DNA from: Thermoplasmata archaeon | GTDB taxonomy: Archaea; Thermoplasmatota; Thermoplasmata; Thermoplasmatales; Thermoplasmataceae | Length of the DNA stretch: 28,816 nucleotides | Direction of reading: 5' to 3' | Assembly (NCBI GenBank): GCA_021797265.1 | Contig: JAJZZZ010000003.1 | Coordinates: forward strand, 1 to 28,816 | In this document: piece after piece, positions 3,323 to 25,223 of the stretch | Numbering within the stretch: the first letter of the stretch is position 1 | How the letters are laid out: each line of letters opens with the position of its first letter | Program-made: the position numbers and the translations under genes | Notes under the pieces: generated by a model | Database searches by the model: none | The model's input: only the letters and a program-made list of their open reading frames with translations | What the model was told of the DNA's origin: nothing

Positions 3323-3345
3323 AGTGGTATATGCAGCAACCTGCA

Positions 3346-3353
3346 TAATAATA
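3346..3353 (-). promoter_or_regulatory. TATA-like box of tricorn A
   Basis: Read on the minus strand the sequence is TATTATTA, 24-31 bases before the start codon at 3322. This is the usual spacing for a leaderless archaeal mRNA. The box would sit inside the coding region if the upstream ATG at 3346 were used, which argues for the 3322 start. Confidence 0.45.
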
Positions 3354-6400: not shown

Positions 6401-6560
6401 AAAATTTGGATTGGAGAATCATGGCGCAGAACCCACAGACGATGTTGAAAACCCACCTGACGCTTACATGAATGGCAAGGACGAACAGCTTGATTACGCT
6501 TTGCAGAAATGCATGAAAATGCTTGATGGATCAGAACGGCGTGTGGAATTTAAGCCATAG
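3423..6560 (+). CDS. tri: Tricorn protease paralogue B, canonical active site and anchor
   Basis: This is a full-length tricorn protease of 1045 residues, a cytoplasmic, probably hexameric serine protease that trims oligopeptides. Domain order follows the Thermoplasma enzyme: six-bladed propeller (about 1-280), seven-bladed propeller (about 300-650), C1, PDZ about 735-830, and C2. Catalytic residues are S720 and H721 (GTSHSYE), S940 (AGSDGD) and E998 (FGLENHG). D911 corresponds to the P1-selecting D936. Unlike the neighbouring copy it keeps the double arginine R93-R94 (STSRRMYTD), equivalent to R131-R132, which anchors the substrate C-terminus. This makes it the better candidate for the classical tricorn function. 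The start is supported by alignment (MNAYITAPDI) and by the TATA spacing. No tricorn-interacting aminopeptidase genes (F1, F2, F3) are present in the window. Confidence 0.95.
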   Translation: MNAYITAPDINGENVIFTANDSLWIMSIRERVPHYLAGGMGIISNSKFSPDGHKIAFRVMSGEDASSADIYVIDADGTDLHRLTYLTGKSTSRRMYTDVAGWKDNQHVIISTDALSPFTALTHLYSVDTANGILERMLYGPASHIIFGDGNIFLGRNTWEMPHWKRYRGGTRGKVWKGTTDGGFSLIVDMETHVSSPVYMNGRIYFLTDRDGFGQIYSINQYGSDLKKHTEFKDFYPRHLSSDGSLAVFSKAGKLYNFNPKDGITSDITPQFRVGFTSLTTRYVDSSKFLEEFELNNTGDVVLTVVRGQGFITGVKDGPSIKIDAASGRIRLARFIGPDSVVFDGDKDNIETIYRYNFRTGKCSKLKGELGSIESLVPSPDGKWLAVTNNSFQLILVNNEDASHIVVDTSPQGRIYDVAWSRDSSKIAYVFPVIRQFLGGHEFATLRIYDLKTGNIRHITTDNSRDYSPAFSDDDKFLFYLSDRSLDPVSDKLVFDLGFQQITRPYSIALGKLSSPDDVPLPADLVPENYIDTGTGDEKLSSKPLMVPAGDISALKSVPGGLTYLRYEVEGGMKYYNTMALRTGKLCLYSFAKREESVIAEKVAEYTVSRSGSSVMARFEGDVLRQLEFNVASEFKPFKIIAETNFDTKRISVSIDPSEEWLQMFRESWRLARDNYWNGEISKKLSVDIYARYEELVKNVTSRYELSDVIREMQGEFGTSHSYEMGGDFHVASSLQVARLGADFSFKDGRYVLTKVLMGDPSNENEKSPLAYGGFAQAGDVINRINGQELNKDFTPWKALINCSNRIVNVELIRKDGRIVARPVRAIPDDRFLRYRDWVETNRKYVHTKSNGRLGYVHIPDMGVNGFNEFSRLFSREANYDGLIVDVRFNGGGSVSQIILEKLMRARLGFDKPRYGIPHAYPADSVNGPIVAITNENAGSDGDIFTHAFKLLGIGPVVGKRTWGGVVGISPRRKLVDGTIVTQPEFALWFKDIKFGLENHGAEPTDDVENPPDAYMNGKDEQLDYALQKCMKMLDGSERRVEFKP

Positions 6561-7048: not shown

Positions 7049-7066
7049 ATGGAAAAAGATATATGA
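7049..7066 (+). CDS. Possible leader peptide (upstream mini-ORF 2)
   Basis: The mini-ORF encodes MEKDI. It starts on the base after the stop of the first mini-ORF, and its TGA overlaps the ATG of the binding-protein gene in an ATGA junction (7063-7066). The arrangement looks like a translational relay in which ribosomes entering at 7019 are handed down to 7063. It could also be chance. Confidence 0.28.
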   Translation: MEKDI

Positions 7067-10000
7067 AACTTGGTGCCGTAATGGCCATACTTATTGTATT
7101 TGTTATGGTTGGCCTTGCTGTATCGGAATCAAACGCTGTGGGCAACGGCTCCAATGCAGTATCAGCTGTAGGAAGCTCTGCAATTGCTTCTGCAGGCTCG
7201 GTAACACCTTATACATATCCCACCACGACAATGCAGGAACCTGGCTATACTAATGGAACATATATAATGGCAGCAACTAACAATGTTGAACATTTGAATG
7301 TTTATCTTACGACCGATGTTTATAGCTTCTACCTGCTCGACGAGATATATGATTCGGCAACCAACCTGCTGCCAAATGAAACAATTTCGCCGTGGCTGGC
7401 AACTAACTGGTCAGAAACTGCGGTGACATCAACAAATGCAGCTAGCTTCCTGGGTCTTGTCAATTCCACTACAAAAGCGACGTACGATCCCCTAAATGGA
7501 AAACTTGAACCGGTGAAATATGTATATACTGTAAATATAAGACAGGGCGTACAGTGGACTGACTGGACACCAGCTAACGCAGGCAGTACATACACATACA
7601 GCAATGTAACAACTTTTAATGGTCCAAGGGGCAACACACACACAATACACTACAGATTCAGCCCAATGACCATGAAGACACATTATGTCCAGTCTGCAGA
7701 TTTTATACTTTCGTGGAAAATACTGCAATCATCTGAAGATTACAGTGGTTCATTTGCCAACATTGTAAATGTGGTTCCTGTAAGCAACACTACAGTGGAT
7801 TTCTATCTCTCAAATCAGTCTGCTACATTCGTGACGTACAGCCTTGAAACACCCATACTTCCATATCATATATGGGTCAATCACGACTATTCAACAGTTC
7901 CAGGGGTCTGGAATTACACTGCATCCCCTCCAAGTTCCACGGGCGGATACAATAACTGGAACGTCAGTTACAACCCCACCACTGGCATGGCTCCACAACT
8001 CGTTGGAACCGGTCCATTCATGATGAATGGAGGATATGGCATGCCGAGCGGTCAGTGGATATTTGATCAGTACTGGAAACTTTACGTAAATCCCCATTAC
8101 TTCGTACAGTACACAAAATCACTCAGGCAGTGGACTCCAAAATTCTATGAACTTTACGTTCCAGAGTACCTGTCGCTATCATCCGCTGTTATAGCAATGT
8201 CTCTCAATCAGGTGTATCAGATCGAGGGTGGAGTTACCCCAACATTTATTCCTACAATAGCCACGTTCTCGCACACATACATATTCAAGAAGCCCACCAC
8301 TGGCTATGGATATATTCAGCTGAACTCATTTGGCCCCAGATCTGCGGCAAACGCATCGGCTGGAGCCTATCCCGGAATGAGTGGGCCATTCACGCCTGCA
8401 AAGATGTATCCTCCGCTGAATATAACATCGGTGAGACAGGCTCTTAACTATGCGGTGAACAAGGTCTATCTTAATTCAGTCGTTGACCAAGGGTATGGTA
8501 TTCCTGGGACTTCAGTTGTTCCTGATTCAGATAGTGTCTGGCAGAATACCAGCTTACCGTCTTTCTCATACAATCCAGCAAAGGCCATGCAGCTGCTGAA
8601 CGAGACACCTGGAATGAAATATGTGAATGGTGTGTACGAGTACTATGGAGTTCCATTCACCATGAATATACAGATTACTTCTGCGGCATCTAACCCGCTT
8701 GGTGTTGAGGGGGCACTGCTCATTCAGAAGTGGTGGGATTCTATAGGCGTTCATACAACTGTAACGCAGGAAGCTTTCAGCACAATCGTCTCAAACTTAC
8801 TGGATTACGGATATAGTGGCATAGAGCTCGGGATAAGTGGAATAGAGGGAGATCCAACCGGGGACTTCGTCACATTCTACACACCTGCAGGATATGGTAG
8901 CGGGTTCTATCTGGGGCCCTTCACTCCTATGAATTCAACAACATTCCCAGGCCTAACAACATCCCACAACGGAACTTACTACGACAACCTCATGACATCA
9001 TTATACAACAAAATGAATACAAACACAACTCTGTCTGTAAGAATAGCTGCCGGAAATGAGATTCAGGGAATAGCGGCCTATGAGTCCACAATGATAAATG
9101 TTGGATACGGTATAGATCTGTTCCCAATAGATAATTCAACATTTGTTAATACAACACATGACACTCTAAGCCAAACCGGTTTTGAGTACTGGAATTTCAT
9201 GTCAGTCCACCTGAGGTCCCAAGTTGTTGCTGCACCTCCCAGCAAGGCTCCAGAACAGCTGAGTGTTGGAGTAATGACTCCCAAACAGGTTTACACCAAT
9301 GGAGAATACGGAAACGTTACAGTACAGGTCAGGAACCAGTACGGATCACCTGTATCGGGTGCCAATATTACGCTTGGTGTGAATCCTTCCGGAGCACTGC
9401 TGAACATAACAAGCCTGAACGGTGTTACGAATTCTAACGGCATTTACACACTGGAGTTCAAAGTGCTTGACAACCAGCCTCTGGTATACACATCAGACTA
9501 CATTGGAGAAATCAACATCTCTGCTGCTGCGACAATTTCAAGCGCCACACCAGGTTCTGTTGTTCCTGGACTTGGCTATACTTTCATAGACGTCCAGCCT
9601 CAGCCGGTCGCCTATAAGGTAACTGAAATGCCGGCACTCAATGACAGCTATAATGTATTGAAGCCAATGCAGATAGAGGTATACAATCCGCTTACTGGAG
9701 ACCCAATAAGCAATTACAGCCTCACGTTGCAGACCATTGCGGGCATTGTCACCATGACAAATGTAACATACAGTAACGCTGCCCTTTCCATGGTATCAGG
9801 CAACCCGCTCAACGAACTGTACAATTCCATAAACTATGGAACACAGGTATCAAACATATCGTCAACGAGTACTAAACCAGTGAATCTTGCACTGACTCCA
9901 AACGGTACATTTGCAGTTATCGTAAACAACGAAACCAACAGCATCTCACTGCTCAATCTATCCAGCATGAAAATCTCCAAGACTTTCGCCGTGGGAACTG

Positions 10001-12021
10001 GTCCTGATTCAGTTTCGGTAGCACAGATGACATCGAACACCACCTCTGTCTGGGCCTTTGTTTCGAACTATGGAAGTGCCAATGTAACAGCGGTTAACCT
10101 AAGTAGTGGCAAAACTGCTGGGAACTTTGCAGTAGGTAATAATCCGAGCGACGTCTCCCTGATAATGAACGGAGTAAACGACAGCTTTGCTCTGGTAACT
10201 AATGCCGGGTCTAACAACGTAACAGCGATTAATCTAACCTATTACGTAAATGCATCACACGGACACGGTTCTAACGTAAACATCGCTGTGGGTAGCATGC
10301 CTGACTATATTGCCTTCTCCGGCAATTACGCCCTGGTATCAAACTACGGAAGCAGTAATGTGAGCGTAATAAACATCTCAAAGCTAAGCTCCTCGACTAC
10401 CAGCAAATCCCAGATTAAGCTTGGCACACAGAAGGGACCGGATGGTATGGCAGTTGTGGGGGCAGATCTCTATGTGGCAGAATCGGGTAGCAACAACGTA
10501 TCAGCAATCCAGCTGGTAAACCTGTCATACAACAGTTCCCTTGCAGCAGAAGGCTATGTTAACTACAGCTGGATCACAAACGTATCTGTGGGCAAAAATC
10601 CACAACAGCTTTCAGTTTCCGGTGGCTTCCTTTATGCGTCAGACACCGGATCCAACGTGCTGTCTGCAATAGCACTGTCCGATGTTGGAACATACAGCAC
10701 TATGGATACTGTTGTAACAAATATATCAACCGAAGCAGGCCCCATGGGTATGCTTACAGTGGGAACCATGACTCTTGTTGCTGATAGTTCTGGATATATT
10801 ACAGTGGTAAACGATTCCAGCTCTGCAATATACCAGAATTATACACTGTGGCAGGTAACTGGCGCCACAGCCAAGAACGGTACTCTAACTGTGATGCTTA
10901 AAGTTGGGCCCAGAGCGGACTTTAACCTAATGGGACAGAATCTTGAAAGCTATGTATTCCTTGGAAACTATGGAGCTGGTGCGCCGGTATCGGGAGCTGC
11001 ACCATATATGACTATAGGACAGATCACATCGGCCACAAACCCCAACGGATTCGGAACACTTCAGCCAGTGGAGCTTCCACTTGGGATTTCAGTTAGTAGC
11101 CCTGCTTACACAATCTCAATGACAACATATCCAAACAACATATCGTCCCCGGGAGGAGCAGTCCAGGTGAATGTGACAGTTGTTAACGCGACAGGGGCTC
11201 CGGTACCTAACTTTGAACTGGACCTTATGAGTCAGAATGCACTGGGTGCAAACCGCGGATATTTCAGCGGAGCTGGACCAGTAATCCAGGCCACTGATCA
11301 GAACCAACTGTTCGGAAGCCTGGAACTCCCCGGAATACAGCTTACAACCAACTCTATGGGAATGGCCACAGCCATGTTCAACGCTGGGATGTATTCAGTG
11401 GCAATGCAGAATGGCAATTTCATAGGGTTCACACCGCAGTCTTTCACAGATCCTTACCTGATACCTGCTGACGACTTCGAGATAAGTGCTGTTGGTGTTA
11501 CAGGCACTGCAGTGACTCAAATGTCCATAAACTCCTCCCAGTCTGTGACAAACGTGCCACCATCTCCAATGGCTGCAACCTATTTCCCCGGAATATCGCC
11601 GGTTGACGGTGCCGTAATCCTGAGCAGTGGATCCACCTACACTCTGTACGTGAATTCCACATACAATTCACCTGCAGGTGTATCAGCGGGAAATGTTCCA
11701 TTCACACTGTCCGCAACATACGGAACATTCTCTCAGACATCAAATACAACAAACTCCAATGGAACATACACGGTCAGTTACACTGCGCCGAAGGTTACCA
11801 CACTAACTGAGGTTACAATAACTGTGGTGGCTGATGGAACAACCTATCTGGAGCACGTCTACATACAGCCTGCACCGACGCCACCCAATAATATTCTGTA
11901 TTATTCGTTGATTGGTGTATTTGCTGCACTATTTGTGATCTTCGCAGCACTGTATGTCATGGGAAGAAGGAAAGTCGTTCCACCGCCAACAGGAGGAGAA
12001 CCACCAAAGACCGGTAACTGA
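7063..12021 (+). CDS. Giant peptide-binding protein with YVTN beta-propeller (ABC importer 1)
   Basis: This is a 1652-residue extracytoplasmic solute-binding protein of family 5 (oligopeptide/dipeptide type), about three times the usual length. Residues 1-25 form a signal peptide (KLGAVMAILIVFVMVGLAV core). The binding domain spans about 55-720, including SVRQALNYAVNK near 456. An Ig-like domain follows (about 740-835). Residues about 940-1260 form a YVTN-type propeller with seven blade motifs such as VSNYGSANVTAVNLSS, VTNAGSNNVTAINLT and VAESGSNNVSAIQLV. Two more Ig-like regions follow (about 1350-1490 and 1510-1606). A C-terminal membrane helix (about 1611-1634) and a short basic tail anchor it outward-facing. 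Many N-X-S/T sequons suggest dense glycosylation. It is the likely peptide-capture partner of the importer genes that follow. The propeller's role is unknown; docking to the permease ectodomain or to surface glycoproteins is inference. Confidence 0.9.
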   Translation: MKLGAVMAILIVFVMVGLAVSESNAVGNGSNAVSAVGSSAIASAGSVTPYTYPTTTMQEPGYTNGTYIMAATNNVEHLNVYLTTDVYSFYLLDEIYDSATNLLPNETISPWLATNWSETAVTSTNAASFLGLVNSTTKATYDPLNGKLEPVKYVYTVNIRQGVQWTDWTPANAGSTYTYSNVTTFNGPRGNTHTIHYRFSPMTMKTHYVQSADFILSWKILQSSEDYSGSFANIVNVVPVSNTTVDFYLSNQSATFVTYSLETPILPYHIWVNHDYSTVPGVWNYTASPPSSTGGYNNWNVSYNPTTGMAPQLVGTGPFMMNGGYGMPSGQWIFDQYWKLYVNPHYFVQYTKSLRQWTPKFYELYVPEYLSLSSAVIAMSLNQVYQIEGGVTPTFIPTIATFSHTYIFKKPTTGYGYIQLNSFGPRSAANASAGAYPGMSGPFTPAKMYPPLNITSVRQALNYAVNKVYLNSVVDQGYGIPGTSVVPDSDSVWQNTSLPSFSYNPAKAMQLLNETPGMKYVNGVYEYYGVPFTMNIQITSAASNPLGVEGALLIQKWWDSIGVHTTVTQEAFSTIVSNLLDYGYSGIELGISGIEGDPTGDFVTFYTPAGYGSGFYLGPFTPMNSTTFPGLTTSHNGTYYDNLMTSLYNKMNTNTTLSVRIAAGNEIQGIAAYESTMINVGYGIDLFPIDNSTFVNTTHDTLSQTGFEYWNFMSVHLRSQVVAAPPSKAPEQLSVGVMTPKQVYTNGEYGNVTVQVRNQYGSPVSGANITLGVNPSGALLNITSLNGVTNSNGIYTLEFKVLDNQPLVYTSDYIGEINISAAATISSATPGSVVPGLGYTFIDVQPQPVAYKVTEMPALNDSYNVLKPMQIEVYNPLTGDPISNYSLTLQTIAGIVTMTNVTYSNAALSMVSGNPLNELYNSINYGTQVSNISSTSTKPVNLALTPNGTFAVIVNNETNSISLLNLSSMKISKTFAVGTGPDSVSVAQMTSNTTSVWAFVSNYGSANVTAVNLSSGKTAGNFAVGNNPSDVSLIMNGVNDSFALVTNAGSNNVTAINLTYYVNASHGHGSNVNIAVGSMPDYIAFSGNYALVSNYGSSNVSVINISKLSSSTTSKSQIKLGTQKGPDGMAVVGADLYVAESGSNNVSAIQLVNLSYNSSLAAEGYVNYSWITNVSVGKNPQQLSVSGGFLYASDTGSNVLSAIALSDVGTYSTMDTVVTNISTEAGPMGMLTVGTMTLVADSSGYITVVNDSSSAIYQNYTLWQVTGATAKNGTLTVMLKVGPRADFNLMGQNLESYVFLGNYGAGAPVSGAAPYMTIGQITSATNPNGFGTLQPVELPLGISVSSPAYTISMTTYPNNISSPGGAVQVNVTVVNATGAPVPNFELDLMSQNALGANRGYFSGAGPVIQATDQNQLFGSLELPGIQLTTNSMGMATAMFNAGMYSVAMQNGNFIGFTPQSFTDPYLIPADDFEISAVGVTGTAVTQMSINSSQSVTNVPPSPMAATYFPGISPVDGAVILSSGSTYTLYVNSTYNSPAGVSAGNVPFTLSATYGTFSQTSNTTNSNGTYTVSYTAPKVTTLTEVTITVVADGTTYLEHVYIQPAPTPPNNILYYSLIGVFAALFVIFAALYVMGRRKVVPPPTGGEPPKTGN

Positions 12022-12745: not shown

Positions 12746-12750
12746 TAGAA

Positions 12751-12757: not shown

Positions 12758-12781
12758 GAGTATTTCGTTATAACAACAGGC

Positions 12782-13759
12782 ATGAATCCCTATCTCATTG
12801 CAAGAAAGATAGTTCAGGATGTAATTCTGATAGTTCTGATGGCTGTGGTCATTTTTGTTGTATACAGACTGATGCCTGGCAATCCAGCTCAATTGCTTTT
12901 ATTTGGTGCCAAGAAGGCGGGGTTATCATCCCAGAAATTGCTGGCAGTTGAATCGCAGCTTGGCCTTGCTGGAGGTAAATGGAACTTTGCTAATTTCCTC
13001 ATTTACATGAGGGATATGTTCACGTTCAACTTTGGATTTGATTATTTCGAACAGCTCTCTGTTTGGGATATTATAAAGCAGGCTTTGCCATATACAATGC
13101 TCCTGTTTGGAACTGCAGCAGTGGTCTCATTCGTTATTGGTATACCGCTTGGAATCGTAACGACCTGGGTCAGGGGCACGAAAAAGGAAAGCACACTTGT
13201 TTCAACTTCCAACATACTGAATGCCATACCTTTTTTTGTGTTAGCCATAGTACTGATAATATATCTTACTGCAAAATTCCCTGTGTTTCCAGTCAGAGCT
13301 GATTTCCCAATTGCATGGATCTCCGAGCCCGGTCACTGGGGCGGAGTGCTATATTATATGTTCCTTCCAACCGCGTCCCTTGTAATAATAGAAGCTGCGG
13401 GGCATCTTTTAACAACAAGGGCTGCCATGGTAGGGACACTTGGAGAAGATTTCATAACCACAGCAAAGGCAAAAGGGGTCAGTGAAGGAAGCATTATGTT
13501 TCACCATGCAGCCAGGAATGCCATGATCCCCATAAGTACCCGTATGGCTCTGGAATTTGCATTGCTTATGAGTGGTGCTGTAATTGTTGAGATTATATTT
13601 TCATGGCCTGGAATGGGGCATCTGCTTTATCAGGCGACGCTTTCACTTGATTACCCGCTCGCTGAGGGCGCTCTGTTTGTCATCTCTCTGGTTACAATTA
13701 TAACGTACTCATTTGTAGACTTCATACACGCCTGGCTTGACCCGAGGATTAAACTGTAG
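12782..13759 (+). CDS. Peptide ABC transporter permease, DppB/OppB type (importer 1)
   Basis: This is a 325-residue inner-membrane permease of the binding-protein-dependent transport family, of normal length for a DppB-type subunit. A first helix at about 12-31 is followed by an extracytoplasmic loop with the conserved RLMPGNPA turn and then by the transport core (about 90-320). The EAA loop that contacts the ATPase is visible at about 220-245 (DFITTAKAKGVSEGSIMFHHAARNA). The C-terminus ends in the usual DPRIKL. It pairs with the second permease, which begins eight bases after its stop behind a GGTGA ribosome binding site. The start fits the TATA spacing of a leaderless mRNA. Confidence 0.93.
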   Translation: MNPYLIARKIVQDVILIVLMAVVIFVVYRLMPGNPAQLLLFGAKKAGLSSQKLLAVESQLGLAGGKWNFANFLIYMRDMFTFNFGFDYFEQLSVWDIIKQALPYTMLLFGTAAVVSFVIGIPLGIVTTWVRGTKKESTLVSTSNILNAIPFFVLAIVLIIYLTAKFPVFPVRADFPIAWISEPGHWGGVLYYMFLPTASLVIIEAAGHLLTTRAAMVGTLGEDFITTAKAKGVSEGSIMFHHAARNAMIPISTRMALEFALLMSGAVIVEIIFSWPGMGHLLYQATLSLDYPLAEGALFVISLVTIITYSFVDFIHAWLDPRIKL

Positions 13760-13767
13760 GTGAATTT

Positions 13768-15987
13768 ATGGTTGATGACAAGGATAACGGTTCCAGTATC
13801 AGAGAGCTCAGAAAGAAGAGGCTTAATTTCAGGCTATATCAGTTCAAAAAACAATGGAAAATATTCTACCGATCCGCATATGGAAAGGTGGGTTTTTACA
13901 TAATTCTAATTTTTGCCATAATTGCCATTCTGACTCCCTTTCTTGAAGTTCATCGGGATGCGCTTTCTTATGTAGCACCTTCAGTGGACACAACTGCGAT
14001 GAGTCTCTCAGTAAAATCGGATATAGGGATCCCTGCCATGATAAATTCAACCCCTGTTGCTGTTGCAGCCTCAGCAATTTCAGATCTTGGTTCAAACATG
14101 GTATACTCGGTAAATTCAAATGGCCAGGTCTATGGGACGTCTCTTGGTTCTGCGACATCGTTGCATTCAGGAGCTAATGTGAATTTGTTCAATGCGAGTG
14201 TATCTCGCAATAACAGGGTGCTTGGAATAAGAGTGTTTCCACTTCAGACAATTACACTGGCTGGTGTAGGTGTAAAGGATAACTACATTCTCATAGCAAC
14301 CGCAGGGGGCAATTTGACCCTTGCCAGTCTAGATTGGACGGGAGGTTCTCCAGGTGTTGGAAGATTGGTGGCTTCAGGAATCAGCCATGTTGATCTTGGC
14401 CTGAATTTAAGTTCAATGCCGGTTTCCAGTTCATTTCCCGTGGATACATCCGTGTTCCCAAGCATACCATTTTCCGGTGCCGTTTTTGCCATAGGGTCAA
14501 ACGACACCGGAACATATCTTGTCAAGATTCAGGATAGCCCATTTTCGGTGATGTGGACGAAAAGCTTGCCGTTTGCCTCCCCGTCCAGCATGGCTTTCAT
14601 AGGTGCGTTTTACAGCAACAGCCAGGTTAGACATCAGACGGTTGTAATTTCTGATAAAAATAGCCTATACGGATTCTATGCTTCAAATGGAACAGAAATA
14701 TGGAAAGCAACTGAGCCATATGTTTTCTCGGGGAAATATTCGGTTCCCGCTTCATACCAGCAATCTTACAGTTCTTATGATTCCATCTTTGAAGTTCTTT
14801 CTTCAGGTTCTGGATATTACGTCGATGGGTTCTATATCTCAAATGGTACAGCTTATCAGGTCTACAGCAGCGATCATCCAATATCCGCTTTATCATCTTC
14901 CCTAGGAGAAAGCGGTTTCCCCTCATCATTACTTGCCATCACTGGAAATACGGCTGTAATACTTAGTTCGCCAGGAAATGTTCGTGGTAATGCATCTATG
15001 ATAACCACCTATGGCGGTTACCTTTATGATCCGGTATACGTACCAAGCTTGAACAGTTACATAATTTCTTCACAGAAGGGGGAGTTATATTCACTGTCAG
15101 CAACCCTTGGAAAAAATCCATTCAACTGGCTTGGATCAGTTTCGAAATCGCCTGTCAATGTCTCTGCCGCTACTCTTCTGCTTGACGCTAACACTGGGCA
15201 GGAAGCCATTGCCATGGTAAACGCGACTGGAGCCGTCTTTGTATATTCTGCCAACGGTGTAACTCTAAATCCTATGCCTCCAACCTTGCATACGCCGTCA
15301 GGCACTATGTATCTGCTCGGAACCAACACAGAGGGTAACGATGTATGGAGCCAGTTTATTGCAAGTTTCCAGCCGGACTGGATAGTCGGAATAAGCGTGG
15401 GGCTAATAGGAATAGCAATTGCCCTTGTCCTGGGAATGATAATAGGATATTACAGGGGATTTGTGTCAGTTGCTCTTGACACTGTCACACTTGTAATATA
15501 TCTGATTCCGGGTTTAGCTTTGCTTATTGCCCTCACATCTGTTCTGAGCCCTTCCTTCTTCAATATAATCTGGATCTTAAGCTTCCTGAGCTGGCCTTTC
15601 ACAACATTTACCATTCTTGGCATAATCAGAAGCATCAAGCAACGTGCCTTTGTTGAAGCCGCCAAAGTGTCAGGGGCTGGAACGATGCAGATACTCAGGA
15701 GGCACATGCTGCCTAACGTGACACCTCTCCTCATATACCTGACGGCACTCAATGTAAGCGGAGCAGTGGGCGGAATAGCCACTCTGCAGTTTCTCGGCGT
15801 TGCGCCTCTGACAATACTCACCTGGGGTGCAATGCTCAACCCACTTGAAAACAACTTCTATCTGGCAGCCTCTGCGCCTTGGTGGGTGATCCCCCCAACG
15901 GTAGCCCTCACTCTTTTCATCATGGCATTCATATTTCTTTCAAGAGGGGTTGACGAAGTGGTAAATCCAAGGATAAGGAGAAGGTAA
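13768..15987 (+). CDS. Peptide ABC permease, DppC type, with large propeller-like ectodomain insertion (importer 1)
   Basis: This is a 739-residue permease where the DppC family is normally about 300. The cytoplasmic N-terminus and first helix (about 40-58) and the transport core (about 510-739) are standard. The core begins with LLGTNTEGNDVWSQFI, the segment that normally follows the first helix closely, and contains the EAA loop AFVEAAKVSGAGTMQILRRH near 628. Between them lie about 440 extra extracytoplasmic residues with repeated strand-turn motifs (VYSVNSNGQVYG, ILIATAGGNLTLASLDW, NSLYGFYASNGTEIWKA, VNATGAVFVYSANG), resembling PQQ/WD-type propeller blades. The start follows GTAGGTGA, eight bases after the previous stop, and the ATPase gene begins one base after its own stop. 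The insertion may dock the propeller-bearing binding protein (inference). Confidence 0.9.
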   Translation: MVDDKDNGSSIRELRKKRLNFRLYQFKKQWKIFYRSAYGKVGFYIILIFAIIAILTPFLEVHRDALSYVAPSVDTTAMSLSVKSDIGIPAMINSTPVAVAASAISDLGSNMVYSVNSNGQVYGTSLGSATSLHSGANVNLFNASVSRNNRVLGIRVFPLQTITLAGVGVKDNYILIATAGGNLTLASLDWTGGSPGVGRLVASGISHVDLGLNLSSMPVSSSFPVDTSVFPSIPFSGAVFAIGSNDTGTYLVKIQDSPFSVMWTKSLPFASPSSMAFIGAFYSNSQVRHQTVVISDKNSLYGFYASNGTEIWKATEPYVFSGKYSVPASYQQSYSSYDSIFEVLSSGSGYYVDGFYISNGTAYQVYSSDHPISALSSSLGESGFPSSLLAITGNTAVILSSPGNVRGNASMITTYGGYLYDPVYVPSLNSYIISSQKGELYSLSATLGKNPFNWLGSVSKSPVNVSAATLLLDANTGQEAIAMVNATGAVFVYSANGVTLNPMPPTLHTPSGTMYLLGTNTEGNDVWSQFIASFQPDWIVGISVGLIGIAIALVLGMIIGYYRGFVSVALDTVTLVIYLIPGLALLIALTSVLSPSFFNIIWILSFLSWPFTTFTILGIIRSIKQRAFVEAAKVSGAGTMQILRRHMLPNVTPLLIYLTALNVSGAVGGIATLQFLGVAPLTILTWGAMLNPLENNFYLAASAPWWVIPPTVALTLFIMAFIFLSRGVDEVVNPRIRRR

Positions 15988-15988: not shown

Positions 15989-18196
15989 ATGATTGAAATT
16001 CAGGAAAATCAGGAAAATAAAAAAACGGCACAATCTTCGACGCCATTACTGCATATACACAACTTTTCAGTCACTTTTGATACTTATGAGGGCAGACTTA
16101 AGGCGCTGGAGAACATTGACCTGAACCTTGCCAATGGGGAATCTCTTGGCATAATAGGCGAAAGCGGGTCAGGAAAAACCACTCTTGCCACAGCTATTAT
16201 GGGACTGATTTCCGACAATGCCGAGCTGGGGGGGACCATTTACTTTGATGGAAATATGATCATAGATTCTGAACACTTTGGGAAGGCTTACCAGAAACTC
16301 AAGAGAAGGGAAAGGAAGATCCTGTCAGAAAAACTCATACTAATGCGCTGGAAGGAGATATCCATGGTCTTTCAGGGTTCCATGAATGCCTTCAACCCTG
16401 CGTACACAATAGAAAAACAGATAGGGGAAGTGTTCAAAATTCATACAAACCTGACGGACAAGGAAATAGAGGAAAGATCCCTTCAGGTAATCGAATCAGC
16501 TGGACTCAACAGATCGGCGCTCAAGGCATATCCACACGAATTAAGTGGAGGAATGAAGCAGCGCGCTGTTATTGCAATGGCGCTGGCACTTTCACCAAAA
16601 TTAGTAATTGCCGACGAGCCCACAACCGGGCTGGACGTGATCACCCAGGCGAAGATAATTTCGGAGCTCAAAAGTCTGCGGGGAACCTCAATAAATTCCA
16701 TGATCGTAATCTCCCACGATGTGGGGGTGGTGTCACAGCTATCGGACAGGGTTGTAGTGCTCTATTCGGGACGCATAATGGAGATTGGCCCAACGTGGGA
16801 AGTTTACAGGCGTTCCCTGAATCCTTATACCCGGGCTCTTCTGAGCAGCTATCCATCCATTGATAGCACAAAATCTCATATAGACGGTATTCCCGGGGCA
16901 TTGCCGGATCCACTAACGGAAAGGGAGGGTTGTTATTTTGCACCCCGATGCAAATATGCAGACAGCATATGTTACAGCACCGTACCTAAGCTTGAAGAGA
17001 TATCCCCCGGCAGATTTAGCAGATGTCATTTTGCCAATAAATTCCTTGATGGTGAAATGGTTGAAGAGATCAAACCACATGCCTCAGAAAAGAAGAATCG
17101 CAGTGTTGAAACGGAAGTTCTTAAGACAGATGAACTTACAGAATATTTCAGCTTACGAACAAAAACATACGGGCAGCTCTATGGCAAGGAAGAGGCCACA
17201 AGAATAGTCAGGGCAGTTGATCACATCGATATGGACATCAAGAAGGGTGAGATTTTTGGCGTTGTTGGGGAAAGCGGGTCAGGAAAAACCACGCTTGGTC
17301 GTGTAATTCTTAAATTACTGGACGCGACCTCTGGTAAAGTTCTGTTCTATGCCAATAAAAACATGGAAAACTCAGTGTCAGAGAATTTCGTGGAAATAGA
17401 TGTTACTGCAAGTCATCAGAGATCGCCACAGATGAAGCTTTTCAGAAGGGAAACCCAACTCATATTTCAGGATCCGTATGATTCCATAGATCCCAAGCAG
17501 ACCGTATTCAACATAGTCCAGGAGCCAATAATTGCGCACAGGATAACCAGCGATCCAATAAAGATAACAGAAATGGTTAACATGGCGCTGGAGATCGTGA
17601 GGCTGAATCCACCTGAGAGTTATTCTGAGAGATATCCACACGAGCTTTCTGGTGGAGAAAGGCAGCGAGTGGCAGCTGCAAGGGCACTGGTTCTGCGGCC
17701 TGAATTTCTTGTGGCAGACGAGCCCATATCCATGCTGGATGTTTCTCTCAGGGCGGGGTTCATGAATCTGCTCCTTGAACTGAGGAATCAGTTCGGGATA
17801 ACAGTTATGTTCATAACCCATGACCTGGCTTCTGCAAGGTATCTCTGCGACAGGATTATGGTTATGTACCTCGGAGTTAGCGTTGAAAGCGGCGATTCAG
17901 AGCAGGTAATGAGGAATCCGCTCCATCCGTACACGAAAGCCCTTATTAAGGCGGTTCCTAAGCCCAATCCGAACTGGGACCCCTCAAAAATAGAAATAAA
18001 AGGAGAGATTGGGAATGCCATAGATGTGCCAAAGGGATGCAGATTTTACAGGAGGTGCCCATATGCCAGAGATATATGCAAAAATACCCCACCCCCAAGA
18101 AAGGAGCCTGAATCCGGCCACTGGTATGTCTGCCACTTCACCCAGGATGAGCTCAGCAGCTACAGGAGCTTCAACAAAGCGGATAATGAGGAATGA
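15989..18196 (+). CDS. Fused double ATPase of peptide ABC importer 1 (DppD-DppF type)
   Basis: This cytoplasmic protein of 735 residues contains both nucleotide-binding domains that are usually separate DppD and DppF proteins. First half: Walker A GESGSGKTT (57-65, K63), signature LSGGMKQR (185-192), Walker B with D209-E210, then the oligopeptide-transporter C-terminal cysteine motif (GCYFAPRCKYADSIC...C). Second half: Walker A (427-435, K433), signature LSGGERQR (553-560), Walker B D577-E578, and a second cysteine motif (GCRFYRRCPYARDIC...C). In related peptide transporters this cysteine motif can hold a [4Fe-4S] cluster. The DNA for the two Walker A motifs is identical over about 22 bases (from 16160 and from 17270). 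The start lies one base after the permease stop behind a GGAGAAGGT site. It powers the two upstream permeases. Confidence 0.94.
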   Translation: MIEIQENQENKKTAQSSTPLLHIHNFSVTFDTYEGRLKALENIDLNLANGESLGIIGESGSGKTTLATAIMGLISDNAELGGTIYFDGNMIIDSEHFGKAYQKLKRRERKILSEKLILMRWKEISMVFQGSMNAFNPAYTIEKQIGEVFKIHTNLTDKEIEERSLQVIESAGLNRSALKAYPHELSGGMKQRAVIAMALALSPKLVIADEPTTGLDVITQAKIISELKSLRGTSINSMIVISHDVGVVSQLSDRVVVLYSGRIMEIGPTWEVYRRSLNPYTRALLSSYPSIDSTKSHIDGIPGALPDPLTEREGCYFAPRCKYADSICYSTVPKLEEISPGRFSRCHFANKFLDGEMVEEIKPHASEKKNRSVETEVLKTDELTEYFSLRTKTYGQLYGKEEATRIVRAVDHIDMDIKKGEIFGVVGESGSGKTTLGRVILKLLDATSGKVLFYANKNMENSVSENFVEIDVTASHQRSPQMKLFRRETQLIFQDPYDSIDPKQTVFNIVQEPIIAHRITSDPIKITEMVNMALEIVRLNPPESYSERYPHELSGGERQRVAAARALVLRPEFLVADEPISMLDVSLRAGFMNLLLELRNQFGITVMFITHDLASARYLCDRIMVMYLGVSVESGDSEQVMRNPLHPYTKALIKAVPKPNPNWDPSKIEIKGEIGNAIDVPKGCRFYRRCPYARDICKNTPPPRKEPESGHWYVCHFTQDELSSYRSFNKADNEE

Positions 18197-18205: not shown

Positions 18206-18607
18206 ATGAAGGCATATGCTTCCGGGGAAAAAAATGAGGAAATCAGGAAAGCATTGATACAGGCCAGGTGGAAGTATATCAAGCCTCCATTGCTGGCCTT
18301 ATTCCTTCTGGTTTTTCTGCCACTTTCATCTGTTTTCTTTTACGGTTTCATACCGTATCTGACATACATGCCTGATGTAATATTTATTGCAGCAATTGTT
18401 GTGATATTTTTCGGTGCCTGGTTCGACTTTGGGGCATCCTCATACCTCAAAGACCTCAAAGATTTTTATCACAAGACCCCAAATGATGCAGACATGGTGT
18501 ATATACAGAAGCAGCAGCTCATCCTGACAGGGCTCTACATTCTCGTAGGAATGCTCTATATTTCTGTCTCTATATTATTGTATTTTATACTGATTCATGT
18601 GTTCTAA
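18206..18607 (+). CDS. Small membrane protein at the end of importer 1 operon
   Basis: This is a 133-residue protein of no family I recognise. A charged N-terminus (about 1-35) is followed by hydrophobic segments at about 37-62, 70-92 and 110-133, so three or four membrane helices are likely. A hydrophilic stretch (YLKDLKDFYHKTPNDADM) lies between the second and third. The start is uncertain: the ATG at 18206 follows GGATGAT, while a TTG at 18197, directly after the ATPase stop, is in frame. It is cotranscribed with the importer. A small membrane protein of different sequence closes the second importer operon too, suggesting an accessory role in transporter assembly or regulation (inference). 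Confidence 0.75.
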   Translation: MKAYASGEKNEEIRKALIQARWKYIKPPLLALFLLVFLPLSSVFFYGFIPYLTYMPDVIFIAAIVVIFFGAWFDFGASSYLKDLKDFYHKTPNDADMVYIQKQQLILTGLYILVGMLYISVSILLYFILIHVF

Positions 18608-18831: not shown

Positions 18832-21800
18832 ATGGAAAATCAAAGTGGAAACGATGAACCAAAAGCCCCTCAAGCTCCAGTGGCTCCACCACGGAGGCCG
18901 GCGGGTAATGGCAAATGGTATGTCATTATAGCTGTCCTCATAGTGGTGATAGCTGCACTTGGAGTTTTGGGCTTCTATCACCCAGTTACAGTAGGCTCTA
19001 CGTCTACTGCGTCAGTAGTGACCAACAGTGCAACTCTGGGGTCACCATTTAACCTGAGCTTAACAGTTAACGGCAAGTTCAGCAGTATTGACATATACTG
19101 GGGCGATGGGCATGAAACTGTAATGCCATGGAGCGGTAGCGATAAGGTATCTCTGGCGCATACGTACAATAATCCTGGAACATATCTGATATATTATGTG
19201 GTTAATTTCCCGTCAGGTGCAACCTACAACAACAGCAACAACCTTATTCCCGTAGTGACGAACTATCAGTCTTCATCAACAATCAACCCTAACTCGGCAG
19301 TTGGTCAGGTTTATCTTTTAAACAACACGGATAATGGCCTGTTTGATTACCATAATGGGACTCTCACACTGAAGCCTGGCGTCAACCTTTCAGCACAGAT
19401 TGGTTTTTACCAGAGCCCGCAGTCTGGAGAAGTTTTCGCACAGTCTGCTAACCTGTACTACATGGATGCCTTCAACCAGTCTTACACACTGCCATACTAC
19501 TTCAACACCACACAGGACAGGTATATTGTTAACCCGGCAAACACAACGTGGAACATAACAAATCTGTCCCAGGGATTCTACCAGCTTGAAGTCACAACTC
19601 AGGCGGGCCAAGTATATTCTCAGACTTACACAGTTCCAACAACCGTTACAAATACATCAGTTGTGAAAACCAGTGGGGTAAAGACATACAATAGTACATA
19701 TCTTGTTAAAATCGCGGGTGCTCCAGTTTTGAACACTTCCATTGAACTTGGCTACAATACCGGTACGTGGGTAACAAACTACGCTAACACAAATGTGACC
19801 TATGAGGCTCTTGCAAACGTATCATATACTGAACCACACAGCACGCCCGCTGTTGTACTGAACATGTATGACAATATGACGTATGTGGCAGGTGACAACC
19901 TGACGTTCAATCACGACACAAACTTAAGCTTCATGTCAAATACCACAGCTCTGTACCATAACGCCAGCTCGGGAAAGACAAAATCCATGGTCTTCAACGG
20001 CTCAAGCTACACCACAAGCTACTTTGTTCCAAGTGGATCTTATCTGAACTTCACAAAGACAGCTGAAGTGGAAGTTCTTAACGAAACTAATGTAACGTAC
20101 AATCACAACAGCTACATGTGGTATAATATGGGAGATATGCTTCAATATGTGAGCCAATACAGCAATACAACATACAACATGAACACCACACTTTCATATA
20201 CCAACCCCAGCACCACGGTCAATTACACTAAAGAAAACGTGAACGTAACCGTTATTACCTTCCATTCCGGAACAACAACAGTTACTGTCCCTACTGGAAC
20301 TGTTGACACGGCCCTTGGGGTTTACTCAACAGAGTACTACATAGACATACCGGTGTTCTCGCAGCCCACAGTTAATGTCCCAATATTCGGATTCGCTCCA
20401 TATGCTCCAGTAGTATCTGGCGCTGGAACATACACGGCAGTTGAACTTGAAACTGGTGGTTACAAATCACTGGACCCGGCAATAGAATACGATACTGTGT
20501 CCTATGAAGTACTCCTGAACACACTTCAGACACTTGTGATGTACAAGGGAAACAATTCTTCAGCATTTGAACCAATGCTGGCCAGTCATCTTCCTAATAC
20601 GGTAGCTGGTGGAGTGAACCTACATTACCACAACTACACCATGAAGACTCCATGGGGAACACACTACACAGTGCATGAAGTTCCATACCAGAATTACACA
20701 TTCAACATCAGGAGCAATGCATCCTGGCAGAATGGTAAACCCGTCACAGCTTGGGATGTTATGTACTCAATAACGAGGACTCTTCTATTCGATGCTGGAA
20801 CACCCGGTACTCCAGGCTGGATACAGGCACAGTACTTGCTCCCGGGCAATTACTACACATCCAATACTTTCTACAACATTACAACGAACATCACAGTGAA
20901 CAACGCTACGAACAACATAACTTTCCACTTCCAGAAGGCAATGTCTCCAACGCTGGTTTATGAAATACTGGGTCAGGTATCAGGAGCGGCAATTGCAAGT
21001 GCATCTTGGCTGATTGCCAATGGTGCAGGCATAACGTGGTCACCAGCAGGCTTCCAGGCATACAAGGCCCATGGCAACTCCGGTGATTACAACACCTATG
21101 TGCAGAATAACGTCTTGGCGGATGGTCCGTTTGAGATACAGTATATAGTGCCGTCCCAGGAAGTTGTGTTTGAGAAAAACCCTGCTTTCAAATCTCCAGG
21201 GCCATGGTATCCAGCAGCACGCCTAAGCCACGTAGTGATTCAGTGGGTGCCTGAAGAAACAACAGCCTATCTGGACCTGAAATCAGGGATCGCACAGAGT
21301 TCCACAATACCCAGTTCTTCCTGGAACCAGGTACAGGCACTTGAAAATTCCGGAATCGCCAAAGTATACAGCTTCCCAACTCTATCAATATTCTGGTATA
21401 ACTTCAACGCTCAGGTCAACGTGAGCATGGCTCAGAAAGTAGTGTATTCCGGCACAAACATGCCGTCAGCACTGTTTGTGAGCCACAACGTCAGAAAGGC
21501 ATTCGCGTATGCATATAACTACCCGTATTACTTCGGTCAGCAGGTTGGCAACAGCATATACCATACGACCTTTGCAGTGCCATATGCAGGAATGCTTCCG
21601 GCTGGAATGGCCTTTGCTCCTACACTGACTTCTAACAACAATACACTGGTAACCCAGTATAACGGCAACGTATCAGTGCCTGTTTTCAACATGACATTGG
21701 CTAAAGAAGCTTGGAACAACTTCACTAAATCTGCAGACTTTAGTGCACTGGGTCTTACGAATGTCTCAGGAGTAATTGAGTATAATGGCCATCCACTGGT

Positions 21801-22365
21801 CATTCCGATTGTCATAGATACAGCTGACCCCACTGACCTTGCAGGCGCAACAACATGGGCATCTAACCTAATGAAAGTAATACCTGGGTCCACGTTCGTT
21901 GTCACGCCTCTTGCTTTCCCAACAATACTTGGATATCAGGTACAGGGGGCAAACCCGATGCCAGTGTATTTCCTGGGCTGGGCTCCAGACTACCCATACC
22001 CAACGGATTATCTGGCTCCAATGGGTCTGCCTACGAACACTTCCCTGTACCCTGGCGCCAATGAGTTCACACCGTACTGGTTCGCAAAGAGTGGAGTTCC
22101 AAGTGGAGTGCAGCAGGCAGCAGTAATGAAGCAGATGATATCCGAATACAACAATGGTTCAGCAGCAACTAGCTCACAGCAGGCAAGCTTCTGGTTCAAT
22201 GCTATGAACAATCACATCGTGAACCAGACATGGTACGTGTATCTGTATCAGGAGAACGAGTTCTGGATACACACATCATCGATACCTAACAGCATGTATG
22301 CTGCTAACGAATCCAATATAATGACCGGCGGCGGCGGAGACCAGATGTATAACTTCTATCAATAA
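18832..22365 (+). CDS. Large peptide-binding protein with N-terminal anchor and PKD-like domain (importer 2)
   Basis: This is a 1177-residue family 5 solute-binding protein. A proline-rich cytoplasmic N-terminus (about 1-30) leads into one membrane helix (about 31-52, WYVIIAVLIVVIAALGVLGFY), not followed by a clear cleavage site, so it is probably a signal anchor with the rest outside. Residues about 55-140 form a PKD-like fold (IYWGDG near 86, HTYNNPGTY near 110). A Thr/Asn-rich, sequon-rich region of unknown fold spans about 150-520. The binding domain fills about 530-1177 (GGYKSLDPAIEYD near its start). It ends in a glycine run without a C-terminal membrane helix, so its orientation is the reverse of the first binding protein. 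It is the likely capture subunit for the permeases and ATPases downstream. Confidence 0.9.
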   Translation: MENQSGNDEPKAPQAPVAPPRRPAGNGKWYVIIAVLIVVIAALGVLGFYHPVTVGSTSTASVVTNSATLGSPFNLSLTVNGKFSSIDIYWGDGHETVMPWSGSDKVSLAHTYNNPGTYLIYYVVNFPSGATYNNSNNLIPVVTNYQSSSTINPNSAVGQVYLLNNTDNGLFDYHNGTLTLKPGVNLSAQIGFYQSPQSGEVFAQSANLYYMDAFNQSYTLPYYFNTTQDRYIVNPANTTWNITNLSQGFYQLEVTTQAGQVYSQTYTVPTTVTNTSVVKTSGVKTYNSTYLVKIAGAPVLNTSIELGYNTGTWVTNYANTNVTYEALANVSYTEPHSTPAVVLNMYDNMTYVAGDNLTFNHDTNLSFMSNTTALYHNASSGKTKSMVFNGSSYTTSYFVPSGSYLNFTKTAEVEVLNETNVTYNHNSYMWYNMGDMLQYVSQYSNTTYNMNTTLSYTNPSTTVNYTKENVNVTVITFHSGTTTVTVPTGTVDTALGVYSTEYYIDIPVFSQPTVNVPIFGFAPYAPVVSGAGTYTAVELETGGYKSLDPAIEYDTVSYEVLLNTLQTLVMYKGNNSSAFEPMLASHLPNTVAGGVNLHYHNYTMKTPWGTHYTVHEVPYQNYTFNIRSNASWQNGKPVTAWDVMYSITRTLLFDAGTPGTPGWIQAQYLLPGNYYTSNTFYNITTNITVNNATNNITFHFQKAMSPTLVYEILGQVSGAAIASASWLIANGAGITWSPAGFQAYKAHGNSGDYNTYVQNNVLADGPFEIQYIVPSQEVVFEKNPAFKSPGPWYPAARLSHVVIQWVPEETTAYLDLKSGIAQSSTIPSSSWNQVQALENSGIAKVYSFPTLSIFWYNFNAQVNVSMAQKVVYSGTNMPSALFVSHNVRKAFAYAYNYPYYFGQQVGNSIYHTTFAVPYAGMLPAGMAFAPTLTSNNNTLVTQYNGNVSVPVFNMTLAKEAWNNFTKSADFSALGLTNVSGVIEYNGHPLVIPIVIDTADPTDLAGATTWASNLMKVIPGSTFVVTPLAFPTILGYQVQGANPMPVYFLGWAPDYPYPTDYLAPMGLPTNTSLYPGANEFTPYWFAKSGVPSGVQQAAVMKQMISEYNNGSAATSSQQASFWFNAMNNHIVNQTWYVYLYQENEFWIHTSSIPNSMYAANESNIMTGGGGDQMYNFYQ

Positions 22366-22380
22366 GGGTCATAAACTCAA

Positions 22381-22419
22381 TTTTATTTATTTTACTAATT
22401 TTTATTTTTTCTTTTTTCT
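22381..22419 (+). terminator. T-run terminator after binding protein 2
   Basis: A T-rich tract with several runs of five or six T starts 16 bases after the stop codon, matching the arrangement after the first binding-protein gene. It probably ends the transcript. Confidence 0.65.
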
Positions 22420-23087
22420 CGTTAGAATTGAGAATTTTATGTTCTTACTATGATGCACATTTATATTGATTCTATTCGCCGAGGTATAAAGATAATAGGA
22501 GAAGCTTACTAATCCTAACTCCCCCACGTTTCATTACAGAGATATCTTGTCTGTAACCTAACCAATTTTATCATGCCATTTAGTCCTCTCAACTCCAAAG
22601 AGCACTCTACTTAGGAAATGCTTATCCGCAAGGACAGAAATGAACTTTCTCCTTGTTGATAGTATCTCAGTTTTGCGTGGGTTCTACAACAATCGTGGGA
22701 ACGCATCATGAGTGATATTTCATGAAGAGGAAACGGCACCTCTTCGAAGGACCAAAAAGGCATGAACATTATTTCCGAAAATACCTGCATTGTGAGATTA
22801 TATTCGTGATAGCATTACTTGACAGATACCAAAGGAACAAGGCGTGGGCCAATTTGCTGTGTCTCGGTATTCTGATAAATATCAACGAGGAAGATGGCCA
22901 AGACCCCGGTTGGATTGTCCCGCCAAGAATACAGCTAATCCAGTATCGGGGATAGAAGACCTAAAAGTCCCCGAGATAAGCAAGTGAAAATCAAGGCCAG
23001 AGAAGAAGTACATTGCAAAATTCATGGGTGTTCTCTTCTTCTCCATGAGGTAGGATACTGTTCAGGAAGAATGCATCATATTTCCTC
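22420..23087. other. Long gap between binding protein 2 and its permease
   Basis: No convincing gene is seen. A 77-codon open frame (22722-22955, beginning MKRKRHLFEG) has only a weak GAGTGAT site upstream and no recognisable family. There is no clear tRNA-like fold or terminal repeat of an insertion sequence. The length is close to that of the corresponding gap in importer 1. Confidence 0.4.
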
Positions 23088-23096
23088 TTTTAAATA
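23088..23096 (+). promoter_or_regulatory. TATA box of the importer 2 permease operon
   Basis: TTTTAAATA predicts a transcript start near 23120. That lies after an in-frame ATG at 23114 and before the ATG at 23153, which helps decide the permease start. Confidence 0.5.
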
Positions 23097-23152
23097 GCGG
23101 AAAGAACATTATCATGGAAAGAGTGAAATATCACGTTCTGATAAGGCACACG

Positions 23153-24229
23153 ATGGAGTTACGTTACTTCATAATCAGACGACTCTTGGTCATGATTCCC
23201 ACTCTTATAGGCTTGCTTGTGATCGTTTTCGCATTGCTGAGTGGGATACCAAAGTCGGTTCTCGCGGCACCATATCTGAATCCTCATTCTTCAGTTCCAA
23301 AGGCTCAGCAGCTTCAGAATATATATGCTCTGCTTGGGCTCAATCAACCACCACCCATACATTTCTTTATATATGTAAAGGATGTTTTCACAGGTAACCT
23401 CGGCATTATGAATCTTGCCGGGTATCCTTCTAACGTGCTAAGTGCCATAGAACTGGCTTTCCCCAACACCGTTCAGCTTGCACTGTTTGCAACCCTGCTT
23501 TCAATTGTTATTGCAATTCCTCTCGGTACATATATTGGGGCAAGACCAAACTCACTGAGCGATCAAGCCGGAAGAATTTTCTCACTCAGTGGCTACTCAA
23601 TGCCTGCATTCTGGCTGGGGATATTATTGATTTACGCTTTAGGGAGCGGTGTAATCACTGGTAACCCTCTGGGAGTACTACCATATTCTGGCTCATTCAA
23701 TCCTACAGCAATACCATCTCCGAACCCGACGTGGTTTCACGGTGAATTCACTTCTCCCACTCATCTTTTCATTTTTGATGCCCTTCTAAATGGTGCATGG
23801 GGGTTGGCTTGGGATGGATTCAAGCATGTAATCCTCCCAGTTATAACACTTACCTACACTATCCTCGCAGGGGTCCTAAGGTTCATACGTGCTGGAATGG
23901 TAGATTCTTCCTATCAGGAATATGTCAAGACTGCACGCGCAAAGGGGGTGCCAGAGAAGATTGTGATAAAGAGGCACATAAGAAGAAATGCTTTGATCCC
24001 ATCTATTACAGTAATGGGTCTCCTGTTCTCCAGTCTTCTTGGCGGGGTTGTGATAATTGAAGATCTTTTCGCATACCCAGGAATAGGTATGCTAGCGGTC
24101 AATGCAGCGGAAACCTATCAGGTTTACGGTGTTCTGGGAACAACGTTTTTCTTTGGAATAATACTTATAGTTGCCAACCTGATCGTTGATGTGGTGTATG
24201 CTTTCGTAGATCCCAGGATAAGATATTGA
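23153..24229 (+). CDS. Peptide ABC transporter permease, DppB/OppB type (importer 2)
   Basis: This is an inner-membrane permease of 358 residues from the chosen start. MELRYFIIRRLLVMIPTLIG is the typical beginning of this family and matches the TATA position. An in-frame ATG at 23114 would add 13 residues, and a GTG at 23123 is also possible. The first helix (about 11-31) is followed by a long loop with GLNQPPPIHFFIYVKDVFTGNLG, as in other DppB proteins, and then the core helices. The EAA loop is EYVKTARAKGVPEKIVIKRH. The C-terminus is DPRIRY. It overlaps nothing upstream, and the second permease starts eight bases after its stop with a GAGGTGA site, exactly as in importer 1. Confidence 0.92.
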   Translation: MELRYFIIRRLLVMIPTLIGLLVIVFALLSGIPKSVLAAPYLNPHSSVPKAQQLQNIYALLGLNQPPPIHFFIYVKDVFTGNLGIMNLAGYPSNVLSAIELAFPNTVQLALFATLLSIVIAIPLGTYIGARPNSLSDQAGRIFSLSGYSMPAFWLGILLIYALGSGVITGNPLGVLPYSGSFNPTAIPSPNPTWFHGEFTSPTHLFIFDALLNGAWGLAWDGFKHVILPVITLTYTILAGVLRFIRAGMVDSSYQEYVKTARAKGVPEKIVIKRHIRRNALIPSITVMGLLFSSLLGGVVIIEDLFAYPGIGMLAVNAAETYQVYGVLGTTFFFGIILIVANLIVDVVYAFVDPRIRY

Positions 24230-24237
24230 GGTGAATT

Positions 24238-25221: not shown

Positions 25222-25223
25222 AG

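Follow-up and report, generated by a model that had tools for sequence, protein, structure and literature searches.

A Thermoplasmata peptide ABC importer permease with a predicted eight-bladed propeller in the loop after its first helix

The window, i.e., the whole 28,816-nucleotide stretch of DNA analyzed here from a Thermoplasmata archaeon (GCA_021797265.1, contig JAJZZZ010000003.1), carries two tricorn protease homologues and two peptide ABC operons. The tricorn genes encode proteins of 1036 aa (236..3346, minus strand) and 1045 aa (3423..6560, plus strand), both with Tricorn_C1, PDZ_Tricorn, and S41 domains above the Pfam cut-offs. The first operon, located entirely on the plus strand, is composed of a giant peptide-binding protein of 1652 aa (7063..12021; Pfam, NCBIfam, and hydropathy), a DppB/OppB-type permease of 325 aa without an insert (12782..13759; Pfam and NCBIfam), an enlarged OppC/DppC-type permease of 739 aa (13768..15987), a fused DppD–DppF ATPase of 735 aa with two ABC_tran and two oligo_HPY stretches (15989..18196; Pfam), and, directly 3' of the ATPase, a small membrane protein of 133 aa with three hydrophobic helices (18206..18607). 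DppB, two oligo_HPY ATPases, and a family-5 binding protein occur together, as is characteristic of a peptide (Opp/Dpp) importer operon; family membership and the tricorn neighbours are what suggest peptides as the substrate. The second peptide ABC operon (18832..28240, plus strand), which has no ectodomain and serves as an internal comparison, encodes a binding protein of 1177 aa, a DppB of 371 aa, an ordinary DppC of 327 aa, a DppD of 525 aa, and a DppF of 480 aa. The window holds the genome's only two Tricorn_C1 proteins, both giant binding proteins among its five of family 5, and the only enlarged DppC among its 16 BPD_transp_1 matches; two further matches share one 558-codon frame.

The enlarged permease is encoded by a single in-frame ORF with an ATG start, and its assignment relies on Pfam and PDB sequence matches. 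Pfam detected OppC_N at residues 26–59 (E 0.0042; 17.4 bits, below the cut-off of 23.9) and BPD_transp_1 at residues 553–738 (E 5.8e-21; 75.5 bits against a cut-off of 26.4), with no significant match between them (PQQ_2 at E 0.23, 11.5 bits against 27.6). OppC_N was found at E ≤ 0.1 in 25 of 27 aligned permeases, and some relatives exceed its cut-off. The first helix, TM1 (residues 41–59; 13888..13944, plus strand), is supported by composition, the OppC_N match, and hydropathy, which places it inside residues 36–63 and the next helix not before residue 535. In a PDB sequence search, residues 68–299 of the E. coli DppC chain aligned with residues 504–737 of the query (E 1.5e-23 to 8z1v_B); since the alignment starts at residue 504, about 436 extra residues lie between TM1 and the canonical pre-TM2 segment. 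The permease core (residues 506–739; 15283..15984, plus strand) is normal by Pfam and by DppC/OppC sequence matches in PDB, and contains the EAA-x3-G coupling motif (EAAKVSG, residues 630–636), as defined in a passage of PMC3150292. Pfam, the PDB alignment, and hydropathy thus confirm the preliminary description of this locus, which had placed an insert of ~440 residues right after the first helix of an otherwise normal transporter subunit. The closest NCBIfam models were oligopeptide and nickel permeases, with Opp4C as the best (E 1.7e-37), and no equivalog (Opp4C, DppC, NikC, and others) passed (Opp4C, 129.2 bits against 350); by sequence, the permease is of the OppC/DppC type, and no named equivalog is claimed.

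AlphaFold2 modeled residues 75–500 of the permease (13990..15267, plus strand) as an all-β domain of 32 strands with block pLDDT averages of about 86. Comparison of the insert model with Foldseek and VIA-align identified an eight-bladed BamB/PQQ-like propeller, with eight four-stranded blades and a closed ring; identity to BamB in VIA-align is ~14% over the aligned part. A profile of the N-terminus and insert gave zero matches to PDB sequences, so the fold assignment rests on the model and on Pfam matches in relatives. Among the 27 aligned permeases, Beta-prop_ACSF4 was found in 4 and PQQ_2 in 3 at E ≤ 0.1. The inserts of some relatives gave matches above the Pfam cut-offs, namely PQQ_2 in L119 (1.1e-9), Kelch in L117 (2.9e-30), and both Kelch (2.4e-35) and PQQ_2 (28.2 bits against 27.6) in L114. 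The DppC permeases of L114 (8820-12032) and L117 (8656-11973) reach 1071 and 1106 aa, and their inserts match Kelch and PQQ-type propeller families, with PQQ above the cut-off in L114 only. The structure prediction bears out the propeller suspected in the preliminary description; of the strand-turn repeats on which that suspicion was based, the predicted fold stands, and the sequence repeats are weak, with marginal off-diagonal matches in a profile self-comparison of the insert (E 0.0013 and 0.0026). In the same AlphaFold2 model the transport core has pLDDT below 50, and the orientation of the propeller to the membrane is therefore not given by the model.

Composition and charge predict that the insert lies outside the cell, as had been proposed. 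Lys and Arg make up 29% of residues 1–41, and this Lys/Arg-rich N-terminus is predicted to be cytoplasmic, which puts the insert outside. The insert itself has 3.8% Lys+Arg and 22.9% Ser+Thr, close to the two binding proteins of the window (3.0 and 3.1% Lys+Arg; 21.4 and 19.4% Ser+Thr) and unlike the fused ATPase (12.2% Lys+Arg) and the tricorns (~12%); inserts of other subfamilies are less extreme, at 6.3–7.2% Lys+Arg. N-glycan sequons in the insert number 10 against 6.1 expected, and at p 0.05 this excess was too weak and was dropped as evidence of side. The gene very probably encodes a DppC/OppC subunit of a peptide ABC importer that bears an eight-bladed BamB/PQQ-like propeller in its external TM1–TM2 loop.

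The insert is retained in relatives and shows signs of constraint. One homology search returned seven further proteins of 738–763 aa that match along the whole insert, and the gene order around the enlarged permease is kept in relatives. In a single pair, the window and L055 (79% identical), dN/dS was 0.107 in the insert versus 0.013 in the core, and it was well under 1 in all three of N-terminus, insert, and core; synonymous sites in this pair are near saturation (pS 0.70 in the insert, 0.61 in the core). Relatives with the full insert, the kept gene order, and the dN/dS of 0.107 place the insert beyond chance, and it is under purifying selection, yet fast-evolving as surface domains are. Synonymous divergence is similar in insert and core, which indicates that the insert was not recently swapped in and leaves a foreign insert acquired by recombination unsupported. 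In a 14-row alignment, identity to the 739-aa permease ranges over 27–82% in the insert and 59–99% in the core. The most conserved insert positions include many Gly, Pro, and aromatic residues, often in loops, and the loops at residues 326–338 and 378–387 rank among its best conserved parts. In the modeled propeller, the last blade seems to be closed by the N-terminal strand, which would bring entry and exit of the insert onto one face; judged from strand order rather than coordinates, the two conserved loops would sit on the opposite, membrane-distal face.

The search for other DppC proteins above 600 residues, suggested in the preliminary description, yielded many. A DppC match was detected in 108 of the 117 genomes of the order, and in at least 58 of the 117 it lies within an open frame of at least 600 codons, although frame length alone is no proof of an ectodomain, as some long frames hold extra helices. 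In the phylum sample, 154 of 389 genomes have a DppC match of any kind. A subfamily B permease matched 129 of the 300 genomes searched in the class at 1e-40, and 23 of the best 24 of these 129 matches lie in frames longer than 700 codons. The named matches include Cuniculiplasma sp., Candidatus Sysuiplasma superficiale, I-plasma, and Methanomassiliicoccales-titled records; the last of these carry a long insert at the same site, a likeness in size and site. The TM1-to-core spacing is 158–825 residues in long rows and at most 39 in short rows. A search with two short patterns, which is no census outside the phylum, gave 56 loci, and the 20 bacterial ones among them, L080 aside, all have an ordinary spacing of 4–19 residues. 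L080 itself, a 3-kb contig titled 'bacterium', encodes a 727-aa enlarged permease that groups with archaeal ones and is probably a mis-binned archaeal contig. The long DppC frames of L125 and L127 have many predicted helices before the core and resemble DppB–DppC fusions more than permeases with an ectodomain, and L123, L126, and L129 also carry extra helices. The enlarged-permease design has counterparts across a broad archaeal group and is not unique to the genome of the window.

Inserts of other subfamilies are less clearly assigned. AlphaFold2 gave a mean pLDDT of 37.9 for the subfamily B insert in 10 sequences, and a single propeller match better than E 0.001 was found by Pfam in 10 members (Beta-prop_ACSF4, 5.7e-5), which hints at a propeller. 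Pfam detected no domain in the inserts of L128, L131, L132, and L133 (158–783 residues from TM1 to core) or of L035. The profile comparison of insert A with insert B was not significant (E 0.014), and insert B matched the group with the f3-type (3.6e-7). A first core tree, built with identical cores merged and nine loci (fusions, cut or split genes) and three rows without TM1 left out, requires three changes of the long label on 113 rows. Once the long-branch rows L123, L124, and L110 are removed, a branch with support 17 separates the 68 long rows from all others, so that the core tree allows a single origin of the long permeases.

The genomic context of the enlarged permease follows a recurrent order of binding protein, DppB, enlarged DppC, and fused ATPase; the binding protein lies on the other side in some genomes, and a second subfamily has the two ATPases as separate genes. 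Of 37 related loci that could be scored, 36 encode the small three-helix protein 3' of the fused ATPase (L049 and L060 are one place, counted twice), with no homologue matched at L068. Its homologues measure 113–147 aa, apart from one of 208 aa with an early start. Pfam gave no match for the 133-aa protein of the window and none in three of four scanned members; the L051 homologue matched DUF3040 at 23.7 bits, under the cut-off of 24.7. The protein is a candidate new subunit of the transporter. The flanks contain a tricorn gene at 14 of 39 loci of the window permease's subfamily, at none of the 32 remaining ecto-permease loci, and at none of the 16 with a short permease; flank length varies among these loci. 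Five loci encode enlarged DppB partners of 491–679 aa, compared with 325 aa here (L036:5953-7425, L043:9411-11150, L114:12036-13757, L117:11978-13708, and L119:5142-7178), whose additional residues follow the N-terminal domain and precede the core; in these residues the sole Pfam match is a short InlK_D3 in L114 (25.7 bits, cut-off 25); the scoop region of DppB may also be enlarged in these loci. Between binding protein and DppB, both operons of the window have long gaps, 12022-12781 (760 bases) and 22366-23113 (748 bases), neither of which contains a long ORF or reaches the gathering score of an Rfam family; 39 bases of the former and none of the latter match L055. An explanation of the locus by noncoding or repeat elements was rejected: the window contains no tRNA, and no Rfam family matched it at the gathering score.

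The 1652-aa binding protein comprises an N-terminal signal, SBP_bac_5 at residues 108–612, a stalk, and a C-terminal membrane anchor at residues 1609–1636. The preliminary description had spoken of a binding protein with its own propeller in the same operon; the shared operon is correct, and for the propeller the stalk gives sub-threshold matches, both propeller-like and Ig-like. The C-terminal anchor and stalk put the binding domain at the far end of a membrane-rooted stalk. Among 41 giant binding proteins, all have an N-terminal hydrophobic stretch and 37 a C-terminal anchor; three of the four misses are SBP2-type, and in L083 the helix lies just beyond the 60 residues scored. Shorter binding proteins carry a C-terminal anchor in 9 of 21 cases. 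The second giant binding protein of the window (18832-22365, plus strand) has an N-terminal hydrophobic anchor, ~560 unmatched residues, and a binding domain at residues 620–1070, the reverse of the layout of the first; since the DppC of its operon is an ordinary one, the ectodomain is not a prerequisite for a giant binding protein.

Computation also links large permeases with large binding proteins. The nearest uncut binding protein within 6 kb measures 866–1722 aa in 37 of 40 scored ecto-permease rows, and 535–822 aa in 17 of 18 short-permease rows, the exception being the 1177-aa protein of the window's second operon. The three remaining ecto-permease rows (749, 984, and 988 aa; L050, L062, and L069) took the binding protein of a neighbouring operon because their own extends beyond the sequence retrieved. 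These counts comprise 39 of 66 ecto-permease and 14 of 18 short-permease rows, to which the window row and four rows of the same genome, respectively, were added by hand; 27 of 67 and 4 of 22 rows received no score because no uncut binding protein lay within 6 kb (in 4 of the 27, it was cut). Ten loci (fusions, cut or split genes) and the repeats L111, L130, L060, and L061 were left out. In nine loci of families f3, f4, and f6 (L035–L043), no binding protein was found in 9–19 kb with a query set that may miss distant ones. The Mann–Whitney p of 8e-9 treats relatives as independent observations and is not to be taken literally; because the long permeases are one or few lineages, the association amounts to few independent events. 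A mirror-tree analysis of 24 loci, with seven comparisons run, gave a residual r of 0.25 (p 0.009) for insert versus binding domain, 0.04 (p 0.35) for insert versus stalk, and a stronger 0.47 for core versus binding domain, so that co-variation of insert and binding domain is a hint only.

The operon shares with Dpp/Opp importers (E. coli DppABCDF of the 8z1v family; Mtb Opp and Dpp) the permease core, the DppB partner, the family-5 binding protein, and the two oligo_HPY-type ATPases. Unlike these systems, its DppC has ~440 extra residues with a predicted propeller, its ATPases are fused, a small membrane protein is added, and its binding protein has 1652 aa and a C-terminal membrane anchor. 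Giant archaeal anchored binding proteins are likewise family-5 proteins held by a C-terminal helix; those found here have a stalk of up to several hundred residues, with Ig-like matches and sometimes a propeller, between binding domain and anchor. BamB is a separate lipoprotein that works with BamA in outer-membrane assembly, whereas the present propeller sits inside an ABC permease, and BamB membership is not claimed. MalF P2 (residues 91–271) is not known to be a propeller, lies in another loop, and is less than half the size; the likeness we propose is one of working mode, not homology.

By this analogy, the propeller could well work like MalF-P2, as a permanent platform on which the tethered binding protein docks, a proposal to which we give an even chance of being correct. 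In MalFGK2, according to an excerpt of PMC3150292, the P2 region (residues 91–271) is likewise a folded extracytoplasmic insert on one permease subunit and contacts the binding protein, MalE. In E. coli DppABCDF, as described in PMC12136057, DppB and DppC are capped by the binding protein, and contact is again made by the region after TM1, here on DppB, whose scoop motif enters the cleft of the binding protein. A propeller in the DppC loop that matches the DppB scoop site is placed to touch a docked binding protein, which we infer to be its contact partner. The propeller would hold the ligand-binding domain of the giant, C-terminally anchored protein above the channel mouth; peptides would be released into the channel and then pushed inward by the fused DppD–DppF ATPase, and could plausibly be cut by the adjoining tricorn proteases.

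Other roles of the propeller were weighed against this one. The small membrane protein encoded 3' of the fused ATPase in 36 of 37 loci would fit a propeller that docks some other surface partner, such as a secreted protease, a neighbouring transporter, or the small protein itself, into a surface peptide-processing assembly, and the Kelch and PQQ matches of L114 would suit varied partners. We regard this as unlikely: the small protein consists largely of membrane helices and exposes little that a propeller could contact, no secreted-protease match was found among the window proteins scanned with Pfam, and the residual co-variation was seen with the binding domain. Propellers in tricorn and prolyl oligopeptidases gate access, and PQQ-like propellers often bind small ligands in their central channel; together with the two tricorn homologues of the window and the tricorn flanks in 14 of 39 loci, this would favor a propeller that itself captures or filters peptides before guiding them into the channel. 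Against such handling of the substrate, which seems to us quite unlikely, the operon retains a dedicated binding protein, no conserved cluster of ligand-type residues stands out among the best conserved insert positions, and the insert diverges far faster than the core (27–82% against 59–99% identity).

The wide range of TM1-to-core distances (158–825 residues) and the much faster evolution of the insert than of the core might instead point to a passive spacer or shield, which guards the channel mouth in acid or raises the docking surface and binds nothing specifically. This is improbable given the constraint expressed in a dN/dS of 0.107 and the two well-conserved loops; moreover, the Methanomassiliicoccales-titled records also have a long insert at the site, and Methanomassiliicoccales are not known to be acidophilic. 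That the joined protein is not real, through an annotation or assembly artefact or removal of the insert after synthesis, is scarcely credible with full-length frames in dozens of genomes and dN/dS values far under 1 for each of the three segments, N-terminus, insert, and core. The one locus in its favor is L070 (I-plasma, 9896-12185), where ORFs of 451 and 278 aa, lying in different frames, share the permease gene between them. The interpretation offered in the preliminary description is partly supported. A docking platform for the tethered binding protein is the reading we retain. Beyond it, and only as a tentative conjecture, Thermoplasmatota might keep a whole machine assembled on the surface, made of the propeller-DppC, the stalked anchored binding protein, the fused ATPase, and the three-helix subunit. 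The insert site would then act as an interchangeable adaptor, occupied by PQQ or by Kelch plus PQQ and in some cases accompanied by an enlarged DppB; it would determine the binding protein or surface partner that can dock, and the machine would feed tricorn directly.

Consistent with the preliminary description, which knew of no peptide importer of such build, we found none described in the open-access literature, nor any propeller-bearing ABC permease, among the matches listed; a passage of PMC10354927 mentions secreted propeller proteins, which are not permeases. In many archaea the permease itself has gained a large surface domain, and among the relatives this one site accommodates inserts of graded size and of more than one propeller family. 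The usual picture of Type I ABC importers is that of a small core in the membrane served by a mobile binding protein, and the present family provides a natural system to test how far transport depends on holding the binding protein in place, with a candidate new subunit for a well-studied transporter class. The peptide supply of tricorn is usually assumed to be the proteasome; the genomic proximity described here hints at a route by which peptides from outside may reach it.
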